This document shows, piece after piece, positions 31,395 through 46,567 of a DNA stretch of 64,000 bases (its first letter is position 1; each line of letters opens with the position of its first letter). The notes below the pieces were generated by a model that saw nothing but the letters and a program-made list of their open reading frames with translations, made no database searches and had not been told where the DNA came from. Source of the stretch: Filosporella fistucella (taxonomy: Eukaryota; Ascomycota; Leotiomycetes; Helotiales); the NCBI GenBank assembly GCA_030077755.1, contig JAQJZZ010000002.1, positions 186,001 to 250,000 of the forward strand, in the 5' to 3' direction. Both the position numbers and the translations under genes were made by a program.

Positions 31395-34300
31395 TCAATT
31401 CTGTGCTTGCCATAATCTCTTCCACCACCCATCACCCTCTTTCATCAACTCATCAGGACCCCCCACCTCGACAATCTTTCCCTGATCCATGACCACCACT
31501 CTTTCGCAACCACCCAAGCTGCTGAGTCTATGCGCAACGCTTATTACGGTATGATCTTTGAATTCCTCTTGGATAACTGCTCTCATCACAGCATCTGTAT
31601 CCTTATCGACACTGCTGGTCGCCTCATCAAGGACAAGGATACGACTAGAATGTTTGCGTAGAAGAGCTCGCGCAAGACAGAAGAGTTGTTTCTGCCCGTG
31701 CGAAAGACCCACTTTGTCAATTGGTGTATTCAGCCCACCAGCCTGCTCAATGATGGGCCACAATGCGACTTTGGTTAAAGCATCTATAATAGCTTGGTCT
31801 GAGACCGTCTCGACTGGAGGGTTATCACTCGTAGTAAAAGATTCTGTTGCTTCGAAAGATTTTGCATCCTCTGCAGACATGATATTAGCAGTGTGAGGCA
31901 AAGCGTTGAAGCGAACGTCTCCTGGTAAAAGAACAGGTTCTTGAGGAATAACAATGATCGCGCGCCGAACATCTTCCCTTTTGATCGAAGATAAGTCCTG
32001 ATCATCGATATTAATGATCCCCTTGTGCTCAGGAAGGAGTCGAAAGAGTAGTCCAATGAGTGTTGATTTGCCACTACCAGTTCTGCCACATATGCCGATT
32101 TTCTCTCCAGCTTTGATCTCGAGGTTGATGTCATGAAGAATGTTTGCAGAATTTTCCTTGTAGGAAGCAGAGACGTTGTGGAATGTTACTGTTCCAGCAC
32201 CAGGCCAATTTGGGGGCAGTGCAGACGGATTTGCGGGAACCGTCTCAGGCTTGATATCTGCTTCTAGCTGTTTGAGTCTTGCCACTGCTCCGATGGAGGT
32301 TTCGAGAGTTGTCCCTATTGTTCAAAAATGAGTGATATTCTTCTGTGGCAATGATAACAAGTGATAGATATAGAAAGAAGAAAATTTGCCCCCACAGTGT
32401 TGAATGAGAGCAGCCACATTCTCCCCAAAGGTAAGCGCATTCAGCATCGCAATACCAATCGCTACACCAGATGTGGTATTCTTGAATTGAGTCGCAAAGC
32501 TAATCAACAGCACCGCCATACAAGCAACCAAGAGATCCATCACAAAGTTAAGCCAGCGTTGAATGCAATACAGTAGATAGTATGGTCGCTGTGAGGCATC
32601 CAGTCTTTTGAAGAAAGCCGCCAGTGATCTCTGTTGCCACCCAAACGCTCTTATCGTCGCAAGACCCTCTATCGTTTCTGTGAACTGAGTGAAAAGAGGT
32701 GACTGTAATTCCAGATCCAGAATTCGTAATTGTCGACTCGTTCGGAGGTAGAACATTTGGATTCCGTATATGATAGCTCCAAGGAGGGGCAATGTGGCCA
32801 GTAAATAATATGATCCGTAGCACATGAGTATCAGGCTCCAAAGAACTTCGAAGGTTCCATGTACGGTTTGTAAGACCGCGATAGGTAGCTGAATGTCGAT
32901 GATAGTCATGTCTTGACTGAAACGATTGAGGATTACCCCGCTATCGATATCTGTGAAGAAAGCTAAAGGTGCCGCGAAGACAACTCGCGTGAGAATCCAA
33001 TGCAGTCTTCTGCTTGCTAGAGGTCCCATGTTGACTAGAATGATACTGAAAAAAGTCAGAAAGCGAAGATTGAGCTTGGAGAGTGAGTATCTCACTATAA
33101 ATATCCCATCTGAGAAGCTAATGCCAAAAAAGGCAATAAGAAGGCGATACCAATAAACACGTTCGTGTGTCGACCATTTGCAGCACTCCACCACCCCACC
33201 AAAAGTTCTGTATTACAGTTAGTCGCAGTATATTATCACGATAGAGGTACTGACGTATGAAGCGATAGCAGGTGACCGAGAAAATTTCTCCAACAAGGAA
33301 CAAGAACAATCTCTTCAGAGTCAGCGCTTTTCGGTAATAATTGTAGACAGTAAAGTCTCCGAGTCGTCGTGCGTCATTGCCCAGATATTTGGCTTGAGGT
33401 TTGGCTGGAACAAGTCTTGCGGTGTCGTTATCCTGTTCTACTTCCTTTTCTGGCTCCTCTCTCTTGTGCCTGGCTTCTGCGATGGCAAGCGATCTGATGT
33501 ATCCGTTGGAAGAGTCGAGCTCAAGGAAAGTTCCCTGCTCCACGATTTTACCTCCTGCTCCAAGGGCAACTATATAATCTGCTGAACGCATGTGATGAAC
33601 TATGTATATCAGTTACGTGTATCTGGTTCACTGAGCTCTGTATGAGACTTGCCTGCATGAGTCGCCAAAATGACAGTCGTCCCCAGCTGTCGCAGTACCC
33701 CGCCATCTGAAAACAGCCGATTAAAAACCAGAGCCTCAGTCTTTGCATCAAGTGCACTGAAGATGTCATCCAGTAAAAGAATGCTTTTCCTCTGATATAC
33801 CGCTCTTGCTAAAGCGAGACGTTGTCTTTGCCCTCCACTGAGAGTGAGACCACGACTTCCAATCACTGTATCTTCTGCATCTGGAAATAGCTGGATATCG
33901 ACATCCATTGTGCATACGTGTAGCACAGTTTCAAGCCAAGCCCTATCAACCTCCTCTGTAGAATCTGAAGAACCGATAATGATCTCTTTCACAGTACCAT
34001 TCGGGAGCCAAGCGCTCTGGCTACAATATCCGATACTCCTATCTCCTAAATAAATGTTACCCTGACCAGATCTCAGTTCTCCGAGAAGTCCAAGCAGCAG
34101 AGTCGACTTTCCCGTTCCTACAGGACCGATGATCATCGTCAGAGCACCACGCTTAAAGCTCGATGTTAAGCCTTGGACTGCATTCGCATCAGCTGAGTAG
34201 CTCAGGGACAGATCTTGCAACAAGATGGCCTCGTCACGCTGTACGGCATTTTCGTTGGAAGGCAAAACTTCGACATCCATTTCCAACGTCTTCTCTGATG

Positions 34301-36175
34301 ATTGACTTGGTGCAGATTTCTTCATCTGTCTCTCATCGGCTCGCTCATCTCGGAGCAGATACTCCTGGATTCTGTCAAAGCAAGCGATGGATGACATTGT
34401 GGAGGGAATCCTGGTGAGAACAATAGAGAGAGGGCCAATGGTAAGATTGAGTATGGAAAGTACTGCATAAGCTTGCGCAGCATTCAGAGGTGGCCCTCCA
34501 ATATTCCTCGCACTAACAGTATACACCATGAAGATGAAAGCAGGCGAAAATAATCTTGCAATACCACCCATAACATTCATCCAGATAATCATATACCGCA
34601 GGCCTTTCATACGGTACAGCTCGCGGATGCGTTGGCTTTGCAACAATCCTTGAAGTCGGGGTCCTAATCCCATCATTCTCAAGCTCTTCATTTCTCGGAG
34701 CGAGGAAGATGCCAATGCAATCCTGGATTGAACAGCTTCGTTCCATACCTTGCGATAACCGACCATCTTCTTCCCAACTATGAAATAATTGACACCAACA
34801 GATATGAATGCAAGTATAAGTGGGACAATGAAACCAATTCCAGCATAATGCCATAGAAGCCACATTCCAATCGCGACTTGGACAGTGCTTGCCCAAATAT
34901 CGTGGAGACCATCAAGCGTGGTCGTGATTCCACTTACGTCTTGGGACATTAACGTCACTGCTGGAGCTTCTTGCGATCCTACAAACTTTAACTTGAGAGT
35001 CTTCGAGTAAATCATTGATACCATAGCGCCACGTATGACCGTGATGCTGCGATAAGTTGAATGTTGATATCGACCAGTGGACACTGCTCGGCCGATATAG
35101 ATGATTCCAGTGGCGGCGATCAATCCATATCCCACATTCTTCGTGTTGGATGAAGATTCTTGGCCAACATAATTGACGGTTCTGTGAATGAGAAATGGCT
35201 GTGCGAAGTCGAAGCCGATTAGACACAGGCGAGGAAAGGCTGGTTCAAGCAATTGCCATTTGAGGGCCGTAATGGTACTTCGTATCAGAGCATGCTTGCC
35301 ACTTTTATCCACTATATCTGTCAATATTTGCTTGGAAGCTGACATGAAATATTGAATTGGTACCTTTGTTCCAGGCCGAATGTGCTGCTATGCTCAATTG
35401 TTCGGATACCAGACCGGAATCCAAGCTGTAAAGATCTTGAAACGCCAGAGCCTTCTTGAATCCCGATCTGAAAAGCTGATTGAGCCAGTAAAACACGCTC
35501 AGGTTGTAAATACTTGCCAGTCCTTCCGGTGTAGTCCATCGATACGGCGGTTTCAGGAAATGACCCTTCTCAATTGCTTCAAGGACGAGTAGCGTGAATT
35601 TTGCTGAGAAAGACGCTGAAAATACGGTGGAGATGCTCTTCAAATCACGAATCATCCAAAGTGTTCTGAGTTGGACTGGGTCAAATAGCACAGAGAAAAA
35701 TAGATAGCTGTTGATGACCAGCGAAGGCTTGACCGTTTTTGCATGCTCGAAATGGGATAGAATGCAGATGAAAACTCCTGCAACGAATGAAATGGTTGCA
35801 GCTGGAATCGAAATCGGAGTTTTCTCGTTCGAAGATATACACCAAAGCACGAGCAGAGGAATCTGCAATGTAGCATATATTATCGATGTTACCTGATCGT
35901 GTAAGCGTCTTAATAGACTAGGGTGGAAGACTTACAATTTTTGCGGCATGGAGCGGGGTAAACTCAGTTTTGATATCCTGGCGGTGAACAATGGCAAGAC
36001 GAATGGGTGCGAAGAGAATGAAGAGTAACGAAGGAACAAGTGATAGGAAAATCTGTTCGAAGTATAGGGTGAAATCAAAAGACCGGCAACTGGGGGAGAT
36101 TGAAGGGCCAAAATTGCTATCGCTGCCGGTCAGACATGTTTGCCTTGATATCAATAACTGACTTGTTGAATTCAT
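31395..36175 (-). CDS. ABC transporter, subfamily C (MRP-type multidrug resistance)
   Basis: Seven exons: 36175-35936, 35892-35364, 35317-33653, 33599-33255, 33207-33096, 33045-32396 and 32314-31395; 1486 residues with every junction in frame. The intron at 33600-33652 is GC-AG (donor GCAAGT). The order is an N-terminal TMD0 of several membrane spans, TMD1, NBD1, TMD2 and NBD2. NBD1 has Walker A GPVGTGKST, signature LSGGQRQR and Walker B LLLDDIFSALD, with Asp instead of the catalytic Glu, as is usual for ABCC. NBD2 has Walker A GRTGSGKST, an altered signature LSHGQKQ, and Walker B LVLDEATSSVD. Such pumps export drugs, conjugates or secondary metabolites across the plasma or vacuolar membrane. 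It sits 8 kb from the RiPP-like pair with a mannosidase gene between, so a link is speculative. Confidence 0.92.
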
Positions 36176-44119: not shown

Positions 44120-45154
44120 TTATATGTCCTTCTCAGATTCTCCCCAGCCATCCACCATTCTCCCTTTCGCCCAATCTCTCACGGCGTCAAAGTTCCTACA
44201 GGTATGAGTATGACCCAGATTAGGAAAGATGTCATAGTCCCCTTCGTGATTGTGGACAAAGGTTATGGGTGTGACGTCTACATTGCACATGACAGTTTGC
44301 CGTAGGGCATCTATACAATGATCTGCATCTCTCGTCAGTCTTATCTTCTTCCAGTACGAGAACAGTAGCAAAGCGCAAGAGCGTGGAGGAATGAGAGAGC
44401 AAATGGGAAAGAAGGTTTGGTAAATTACGTACCCCAATGCATGCCCATAATTGTATTGTGATTCACAGTCCCATTCTCGAACCTTGTCCACCCATCTGGA
44501 TACTCATCGGGATAAATAGCTTTGCGCAATAGATTCACGCAATGCAATAAATGGAATACTTCGAGTTGGACAATATAGGTGTCGGGATCATTTGGAGCTG
44601 GGAGAGTTTCGTTGATGAGGTTCGCTGCTTCTGACTTAGATAGACCGGAAATTCCAACTTGGAATAATTAGCTATCTGTCCAAGTAGGTTCAATTGAGAA
44701 AGGAGCGGAAACAGGAAAGAAATGAAAAGAAAACACACAATCGTATAAGCTTTCCCATAATGCATCTTTTTCTGGCGTTGGAGGACCCAGATAGGCACTT
44801 CGAAACGCAAAGTGTTTTTCAAAAGTCACTGTCTCATACTTGACAGCTGAATTCGCTGGAGCTGGAGCGACACGTTAACTTTCATGTCCCAGAGTGGTTA
44901 TTGGATAAATACGTACACCAGAGAGCGAGAGTTGGATCCCTAACATAGTTACGACATGCGACGTAGACCAACAAGCAAACAGTTGCTAGTAGAAATGAAA
45001 TAGTGGCATAGAGAGTTTTGATATGAAGTGATTGTCGACGAAAATGATTTCTCGGCTGTCCCTGTTCGTTGTCACCGAGGAAGGGTTCGGTCTCATCCGA
45101 TGATGGTAATCGGGAGAATTCGCAAGGTTCCCGGACGCTCGATTTTTCTGCCAT
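44120..45154 (-). CDS. UstYa-family (DUF3328) oxidase, RiPP-type tailoring protein
   Basis: Four exons: 45154-44917, 44861-44739, 44657-44433 and 44322-44120; introns of 55, 81 and 110 bp; 262 residues, all junctions in frame. There is a cytoplasmic N-terminus of about 46 residues and one transmembrane helix (about 47-67, YATISFLLATVCLLVYVA). The luminal domain carries the family hallmarks: YLGPPTPEKDALW, first HxxHC motif HLLHC (156-160) in LEVFHLLHCVNLLRK, second motif HWDHC (194-198) followed by IDALRQTVMCNVDVTP, and HTCRNFDAVRDW near the end. UstYa-type proteins catalyse oxidative cyclisation of precursor peptides in ustiloxin-type (dikaritin) pathways and also occur in other metabolite clusters. 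Divergent orientation to the repeat precursor at 46025-46567, about 870 bp apart, suggests joint regulation and that the precursor is the substrate. Both metal-binding motifs are intact. Confidence 0.92.
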
Positions 45155-46024
45155 GATTGGATTTATTGAAACAAAGATGTCGGATATTGCGAATATGGCT
45201 TTTAGAGGATGAAGATTCAAATATGAAGCTCTGGTACCTCAAGACCCGATCTCGCTAAGAGTATATATCGTTTTACAAGCTGACGTGAATGCTGACAGGC
45301 GATTCCGCGGAGAAACAACATCTCATGTTACCCGAATCTTATTTGTAGACGACACAAGAAATACAAGCTGACAAGCGGTGAAAAAGACAGCTGTGTACCT
45401 CTCTTTTTCCGTTCCGGCTAAATACAAAATACAACGTACCAGAGGCGAAAACTAGGGGCAAATCATCAAGTGGATATATGGCGCAGCCACCTGAAAGCTG
45501 AATGCTTCATATTTTTCTACTGCCAGCGCTTAGAACGACGAAGATTGGACTTATCTTCATATCAACACGGAAAGTCACTAGAAACTCGGCATAACTCTAC
45601 CTTACTAAGTATTTAAGTACCTTCCAAACTTGGATCAGACGGCAAATACACCTTGTCGGGAAAGCCATTTTCTCGCATTGACGACTTGTAACTTCTTCCA
45701 GATGAAATATTTTTGTCTAGAGGCTTGCCATGGTGACCAAACAGGAATGTAAAGTAAGCAATAGAGATTTGTACGGTACACAGGTGTTTCTATTCTAGGT
45801 GTCATGAGAGGGAAGACACAAGCTAGAAAGGTCGGGTAGTCCGAGCCTGGACCGAGGTTCATGATGTGTTCCAAGAGCGAGTGAGTATTCAACATTAGGT
45901 CAACCAATGTGGCTGATTCCATCCAAAAGTGTATATAAAGGGGACATCATAGTCGCCTTGAAAGACAATTCCATACACCTCATCGAAACAAGAAGAACAA
46001 CGAATACCACTCCATATCTCAAAA
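45155..46024. promoter_or_regulatory. Bidirectional promoter between UstYa-type gene and RiPP precursor
   Basis: An 870-bp divergent interval. On the precursor side CCAAT (45904-45908) and TATATAAA (45932-45939) stand about 117 and 86 bp before the ATG at 46025. On the UstYa side TATATA (45262-45267) lies about 107 bp upstream of the ATG at 45154, read on the minus strand. Between them an unconvincing 95-codon minus-strand open frame (45635-45922) shows no recognised motif and may be chance. Confidence 0.6.
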
Positions 46025-46567
46025 ATGAAGCTCTCCATTTTCACCACCACCTTGCTTCTCGTAGCGGGAGCAGCGGCACTTCCGCACTCTGGTTCGTGAA
46101 ATTCACTCCATGAGCGCTATAATCTTTACTCACCGTTGATTTCAACAGGAGACAAACGAGCGGTCGATACGAATAAGATCAAAGCCGCCATTGATGCAAT
46201 CTCGTCTTTGGATTACGCAGCTGGGCAAAATGAGTACGAGTTCAAATCCAAAAGAGACGTCGATACGAATAAGATCAAAGCTGCCATTGACGCAATTTCT
46301 TCTTTGGATTATGCAGCTGGGCAAAATGAATATGAGTTCAAATCCAAAAGAGACGTCGATACGAATAAGATCAAAGCTGCCATCGACGCAATTTCTTCGT
46401 TGGATTATGCAGCTGGGCAAAATGAATACGAGTTCAAGTCCAAGAGAGAAGGAGATGGCAATATCACTACAGACGGCCTAGGCATTTCGAAGGTAAGAGC
46501 GTTCATTTAGACTGTCGTATCCTTCAAGTTTATCCGGGCAAGCTGACCTTGAGCTCTCTAGAACTGA
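46025..46567 (+). CDS. Dikaritin-like RiPP precursor with three Kex2-bounded repeats
   Basis: Exons 46025-46091, 46149-46492 and 46562-46567; 138 residues (without the last splice it would end nine codons later at the stop ending 46510, little changed). The signal peptide is MKLSIFTTTLLLVAGAAALP. After a first Lys-Arg come three 32-residue repeats (DNA 46160-46255, 46256-46351, 46352-46447), each ending in SKR, so Kex2-type cleavage would release three near-identical peptides. Each unit has an amphipathic helix-like first half, then LDYAAGQNEYEF just before the cleavage site. The Tyr-Ala-Ala-Gly resembles the Tyr-Ala-Ile-Gly core of ustiloxin; the Tyr-Glu-Phe nearer the cut is an alternative core. 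This plan (secretion signal, tandem repeats, KR sites, Tyr-containing core, adjacent UstYa gene) defines dikaritin-type precursors. The final product and its activity are unknown. Confidence 0.88.
46160..46447 (+). repeat. Three 96-bp in-frame tandem repeats of the RiPP precursor
   Basis: Units 46160-46255, 46256-46351 and 46352-46447. Units 2 and 3 differ at five bases, all synonymous. Units 1 and 2 differ at seven synonymous positions plus one codon (Ala versus Asp) at the first residue. Confidence 0.97.

Follow-up and report, generated by a model that had tools for sequence, protein, structure and literature searches.

The window analysed here (the whole stretch of 64,000 nucleotides, C2:186001-250000 in a genome of 45.8 Mb and 19 contigs) contains a repeat precursor gene and a UstYa-type gene which are considered, with a probability of roughly 0.8, to form a minimal, two-gene RiPP cassette of the UstYa type. 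Its product would most likely be a small cyclic peptide, unfamiliar in sequence but belonging to a known type. Both genes are immediate neighbors, transcribed divergently from start codons lying 870 bp apart, and a related pair was encountered on contig C15 (Table 1). Spliceosomal introns, together with the UstYa complement, suggest that the genome belongs to a filamentous ascomycete.

The three exons of the precursor gene fuse in frame into 138 residues. The N-terminus is basic and then hydrophobic, with a maximal 11-residue Kyte-Doolittle mean of 2.32, a hydropathy resembling that of signal peptides, and the protein is probably secreted. This signal-peptide-like start is followed by Asp-Lys-Arg, three repeats of the form VDTNKIKAAIDAISSLDYAAGQNEYEFKSKR-D/E and a short tail. 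Lys-Arg precedes the final residue of each repeat and occurs once more (DKR) ahead of repeat 1, so that the precursor displays the repeat arrangement by which Kex2-processed repeat proteins (KEPs) are recognized, namely three or more repeats with KR, RR or KK between them. The array scored 497 with Tandem Repeats Finder, while the runner-up among the six rows obtained for the window scored 68. A sequence-only reading of this DNA had announced intact splice sites and three 32-residue repeats closed by Lys-Arg, and both were recovered here: the two introns are GT-AG, the exons keep the frame and units of 96 nt (32 aa) are read at 46163-46450. Pfam matches of the precursor itself (the best being WIYLD at 3.2e-6 and 27.3 bits, where the cut-off is 27 and no single stretch passed on its own) were rejected as a repeat artefact.

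Table 1. Features of the window cassette, of its upstream region and of the related pair on contig C15.
Feature	Position	Strand	Remarks
Precursor exon 1	46025..46091	+	signal-peptide-like MKLSIFTTTLLLVAGAAALPHS; exon end PHS kept in C15 paralogue
Precursor intron 1	46092..46148	+	57 nt, GT-AG
Precursor exon 2	46149..46492	+	DKR cleavage site, then the repeats 1-3 and the C-terminal tail
Repeat 1	46163..46258	+	VDTNKIKAAIDAISSLDYAAGQNEYEFKSKRD; Lys-Arg at 46250-46255
Repeat 2	46259..46354	+	Lys-Arg at 46346-46351
Repeat 3	46355..46450	+	last residue Glu; Lys-Arg at 46442-46447
Precursor intron 2	46493..46561	+	69 nt, GT-AG
Precursor exon 3	46562..46567	+	Asn codon, then stop
UstYa-type exon 1	44917..45154	-	hydrophobic, membrane-anchor-like stretch (by eye)
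UstYa-type exon 2	44739..44861	-	intron 1 acceptor picked from three in frame; gives SPAN, as in the family consensus
UstYa-type exon 3	44433..44657	-	HLLHC; intron 2 is one of the two best-scoring among five in-frame choices
UstYa-type exon 4	44120..44322	-	HWDHC across the exon 3/4 junction; intron 3 is the best-scoring of four in-frame choices
Upstream block common to paralogue promoter	45828..45855	+	22/28 identical
Core TAGTCCGA-N6-ACCGA	45837-45855	+	two genome matches, one ahead of each precursor gene
TATA-like site	45932..45937	+	93 bp before precursor ATG; motif only
C15 paralogous precursor	C15:2010043-2011219 (L030 6544-7720)	-	ten units, varied tails, degraded cleavage sites
C15 UstYa gene	C15:2012494-2013498	+	divergent from paralogous precursor

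Pairwise, the repeats differ by 7, 11 and 6 nucleotides, exclusively at third codon positions. Residues 1-31 are the same in all three and the last residue alone varies (Asp, Asp, Glu). The first 93 nt contain 11 variable sites, each of them synonymous, for which random substitution would give a probability of 1.7e-7 if sites are treated as independent (0.24 per substitution). Recent copying alone does not account for the repeats: the peptide was kept while the DNA drifted, and this synonymous-only divergence shows selection on the peptide. Used as a DNA query, the precursor matched nothing but itself in the genome. Since the identity spans all 31 residues, beyond a short core, it would also suit a linear peptide of about 32 residues, released by Kex2 and left unmodified as a pheromone-, hormone- or surface-peptide-like molecule, the UstYa gene being there by coincidence or acting elsewhere. 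The stretch IKAAIDAIS could form an amphipathic helix, and a DUF3328 gene lies near only 1758 of the 7878 such precursors counted in the survey of PMC7329392, both of which would be in keeping with a linear peptide.

The neighboring gene belongs to family UstYa (PF11807, formerly DUF3328), which Pfam detected in three of its exon ORFs (E = 5.4e-20, 9.5e-13 and 5e-6), and it was also recovered by a genome-wide search for the family. Its model was assembled from high-scoring splice choices agreeing with the family consensus (3, 5 and 4 in-frame options for the three introns). The spliced product counts 262 residues and contains HLLHC (residue 156) as well as HWDHC (residue 194), the latter hinging on the acceptor chosen for intron 3. 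When the window protein was aligned with 24 of its 76 homologues, each HxxHC motif was found in 24 of the 25 rows and the remaining row had gaps at both. The top eleven public homologues displayed 43-63 % identity over 51-96 % of the query; those named came from Aspergillus avenaceus, Rhizodiscina lignyota, Talaromyces islandicus, Letrouitia, Neoarthrinium moseri and Ophiobolus disseminans. Two of the features that define UstYa-type RiPP cassettes in the broad sense, a DUF3328/UstYa gene clustered with the precursor and both HxxHC motifs in the (spliced) enzyme, were found in the window. A structure predicted for P0001, one of the UstYa homologues, with 35 of the 76 aligned, reached a mean pLDDT of 73.8 and a pTM of 0.60, and displayed a long N-terminal helix, with helices starting at or just before both motifs. 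This predicted model adds no mechanism; it matched no PDB fold at E<=0.001, and a family profile search found no solved relative by sequence. UstYa proteins are described as also acting in non-RiPP pathways (PMC12048977), which counts against the RiPP cassette reading.

A search of the genome with the precursor uncovered the locus on C15 in four pieces, the best of which reached E = 1.9e-14 at 49 % identity. The other matches were the precursor's own locus, in two pieces, and a chance-level one at C11:1121113-1121397 (E = 0.56), a 119-residue frame without repeats beside which the frames were transporter-like by eye; this candidate was dropped. The C15 precursor is composed of three exons, 338 residues and ten units, and its first intron lies at the matching place after Pro-His-Ser. 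Its start codon is 1,274 bp away from that of the C15 UstYa gene, in the same divergent layout as in the window. Exons 1-4 of the two UstYa genes share 52, 66, 85 and 66 % identity. In the comparison with public homologues, which covered exons 3 and 4, the C15 gene scored 140 and 98.6 bits against the window gene, and the best of the 76 public homologues 113 and 82.4 bits. The two loci look like an old duplicated cassette and, as duplicates, their shared linkage does not amount to two independent observations.

The C15 precursor was split into units at Arg-Ser/Ala junctions and aligned on Asp-Tyr, which occurs once in each of the ten units. A common block of 17 residues emerged, D-T-x-A-I-K/Q-A-A-V-D-A-I-S-x-A-D-Y, of which Ala-Ala is invariant in all ten units and in the window, other pattern positions being shared by six to nine of the ten; the third unit deviates most. 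Nonsynonymous differences per codon per pair of units amounted to 0.28 in the block (17 codons; 0.32 once the two codons that served for the alignment are removed) versus 0.76 in the next four codons, and synonymous differences to 0.39 and 0.11, respectively. Tails start with AASDW, ASAKW, EIGSQ, ENNKQ, KWKTE, KWSTN, KWITQ, GWHTN, KWGTQ and MWSTD; with Tyr as position 1, Trp is found at position 3 in six of the ten units and Ile in one. A conserved block with a variable tail behind it is what would be expected if a recognition segment preceded a core. Such variability concentrated after Asp-Tyr speaks against the unmodified linear peptide, as does the UstYa gene adjoining the precursor at both paralogous loci, and that reading is judged unlikely. 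UstYa matches were found 27 times in the genome, at about 18 loci according to our own grouping, so that chance adjacency to a precursor is improbable; a UstYa gene beside the precursor at both loci is what would be expected for the precursor of a UstYa-processed cyclic peptide.

Cleavage sites of the C15 precursor are dibasic in four of ten cases and Glu-Arg or Gln-Arg, poor for Kex2, in the other six. The C15 UstYa gene offered no frame-keeping GT-AG pair at its second intron, while the window gene displayed one in the same test; the C15 pair may therefore be decaying. A broken gene, unusual splicing or an assembly error could each underlie this second-intron problem. The degraded sites and the seeming inability of the C15 UstYa gene to splice normally would also fit a cassette that is silent or decaying and yields no product. 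For the window this is very improbable: in its pair the frames are intact, all introns are GT-AG and the two HxxHC motifs are present, and the synonymous-only divergence of its repeats reflects selection on the peptide.

According to the preferred reading, that of a cyclic peptide cassette, the precursor would enter the secretory pathway by means of the signal peptide suggested by its N-terminal sequence. The Golgi protease Kex2 would then cut after the four Lys-Arg pairs present, and a Kex2-type P domain protease gene was found in the genome. Three 32-residue peptides would result, differing in their first residue only (Ala, Asp, Asp). Judging from its conservation, the repeated DTxxIKAAxDAISxxDY may serve as recognition segment for the modifying enzyme, while the contrast between conserved and variable halves in the paralogue suggests that the core starts from the Asp-Tyr of this block. 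The neighboring UstYa oxidase would, as its family membership implies, link a core Tyr to a nearby side chain, and after trimming by unlinked peptidases a small cyclic peptide lying inside YAAGQNEYEFKS would be left.

As a best guess, we place the ring at Tyr-x-Phe (EYEF), because the paralogue displays Tyr-x-Trp in six of ten units and Tyr-x-Ile in one. Alternatively, the ring might be a ustiloxin-like tetrapeptide core at DYAAG, in which the Tyr after Asp would be linked two residues on, as in EDYxI cores. Every unit of the two precursors contains Asp-Tyr and one paralogue unit, DYEIGSQKR, comes near the EDYxI pattern (as given in PMC6339444), but the window residue two past Tyr is Ala, which on chemical grounds is presumably less suitable as a partner than Ile, Trp or Phe. 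Moreover, the repeat continues with Glu-Phe after its second Tyr, resembling the Tyr-x-Trp of six paralogue units, and contig C2 is devoid of a tyrosinase match. The DYAAG ring is considered less likely than Tyr-x-Phe, though a serious alternative.

Whether the cassette can be called dikaritin-type, as proposed in the sequence-only reading, depends on how the term is used. In the broad sense of a repeat precursor with an adjoining DUF3328 gene the name is supported. In the strict sense it is not: the units read LDYAAG and NEYEF rather than the EDYxI pattern of PMC6339444, and all 32 PF00264 (tyrosinase) matches of the genome lie outside C2; for lack of a match on this contig the cassette was not filed under strict dikaritins. 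The same reading had described the core as unfamiliar; LDYAAG and NEYEF fit neither EDYxI, displayed by ustiloxin and phomopsin precursors, nor YVW[G/A][G/S], the core of another conserved class in PMC6339444. The C15 units touch both classes, in that one reads DYEIG and six carry Tyr-x-Trp. The survey of PMC7329392, in which the count of DUF3328 genes peaks at the gene next to the precursor, reports Tyr in 65.6 % of repeats with a DUF3328 gene nearby versus 38.2 % of those without. Repeat precursors near DUF3328 genes are common (the 1758 of 7878 given above), which makes the window cassette one of a known kind. By their description, the DUF3328-accompanied KEP types G-5, G-6 and G-10 of this survey are also similar, as they contain Tyr, often with a nearby Asp.

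UstYa homologues and a tyrosinase act in ustiloxin ring closure, and a single enzyme, AprY, is reported as essential for the two-ring asperipin-2a (PMC6514808, PMC9233826). In gene content the window cassette is nearest to asperipin. The asperipin-2a cluster (aprA, aprY, aprT and aprR) likewise combines a Kex2-type repeat precursor and one UstYa-type enzyme with an aromatic core, and the four genes described in PMC6514808 comprise no tyrosinase, just as none was matched on C2. Its core, FYYTGY, differs by its three tyrosines and two rings, and its cluster includes a transporter and a reductase, whereas the only transporter seen in the window, of ABC type, is encoded about 8 kb away from the UstYa gene. 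Ustiloxin and phomopsin share with the window a Lys-Arg repeat precursor, an acidic residue and Tyr at the core start and a UstYa-type enzyme, but have an EDYxI core (PMC6339444) in place of DYAAG...EYEF. They also have tyrosinase, methyltransferase and S41 peptidase genes according to PMC6514808, none of which was found among the window genes searched. YVW[G/A][G/S]-core precursors (PMC6339444) share Tyr-x-Trp with six of the ten C15 units, whereas the window unit displays Tyr-Glu-Phe and Tyr-Ala-Ala.

S41 peptidases and methyltransferases were absent from the 27 window ORFs submitted to Pfam (27985-61868), a set outside which fell many short ORFs and exons and everything below 27.9 kb. Besides UstYa, the domains named were ordinary ones, namely ABC transporter, beta-mannosidase, TFIIA, Cdc20/Fizzy, kelch, BTB and ferritin-like; above 27.9 kb, these neighbors offer no grounds for widening the cassette past two genes. 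The ABC transporter gene consists of several exons (31395-35931, - strand), is separated from the UstYa gene by the beta-mannosidase gene and is probably unrelated to the cassette. The pair suggests that a bare precursor and UstYa gene may persist without adjacent tyrosinase, methyltransferase or peptidase genes, and such pairs may be overlooked by cluster-mining rules.

Relatives of both precursors were sought in about 5.8 billion proteins. None reached E<=10, either among 1382 word-sharing candidates for the window precursor or among the 7998 candidates sharing most words that were scored for the C15 paralogue; as this search needs shared 5-residue words and similar length, distant relatives could be missed. 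Strings from the conserved block had no match in the paper texts searched (the supplementary tables of two large surveys lay outside their scope), and text matches to YVWGG, YVWGS and YVWAG did not concern fungal peptides, judging by titles and abstract starts. The precursor had been announced as previously unseen, which holds within these proteins and texts only.

The upstream regions of the two precursor genes were also compared. None of 200 shuffles reached the 28-base match, a length picked after seeing it, in a comparison that is post hoc; the 19-base ungapped match was reached by 33 of 200 shuffles and the gapped alignment by 10 of 300. Both genome matches of TAGTCCGA-N6-ACCGA lie in coding direction, and the reversed control gave one match. 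Their count is near chance, and their position before both precursor genes is notable, if only suggestive. The shorter TCCGA-N6-ACCGA was also found once in L016, near another UstYa locus, when 18 other stretches were scanned. A 13-mer shared by both loci, TGGACCGAGGTTC, was rejected, as it occurred in three genome copies versus two for its reversed control (one match on each strand) and lay at non-equivalent places.

Tentatively, the two precursors might represent a lineage-restricted family of RiPPs whose cores are each preceded by a common 17-residue recognition block, a single UstYa enzyme handling the varied Tyr-x-(Trp/Phe/Ile) cores. The block ending in Asp-Tyr would dock while tails evolve freely, and a shared regulator might act via TAGTCCGA-N6-ACCGA; as a whole, this proposal is possible rather than probable. 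Ten different tails are found on C15 and one, in triplicate, in the window. A fixed block with ten natural tails, together with a paralogue bearing three identical ones, constitutes a natural mutational series for enzyme recognition, and the paralogue makes the core prediction testable.

The flanks of 13 of the about 18 UstYa loci were scanned for repeat precursors: besides the window locus, ten were covered over about 9-10 kb on either side and two over about 3 kb. Such precursors were found at three of the 13, a scan that needs repeated 5-residue words and would miss loosely repeated ones: in the window, on C15 and, unrelated to these, on C9. The latter is a di-histidine repeat protein (EPHHTEAQIAAKKAKAAKN; C9:6109738-6110271, L014 6239-6772, - strand) encoded about 2.4 kb from another UstYa gene, and it is reminiscent of the DUF3328-accompanied di-His precursor types described in PMC7329392. 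Beside a further UstYa locus, a long frame resembling subtilisin-type proteases and containing repeated units was noticed by eye (L026 1479-3962, - strand).
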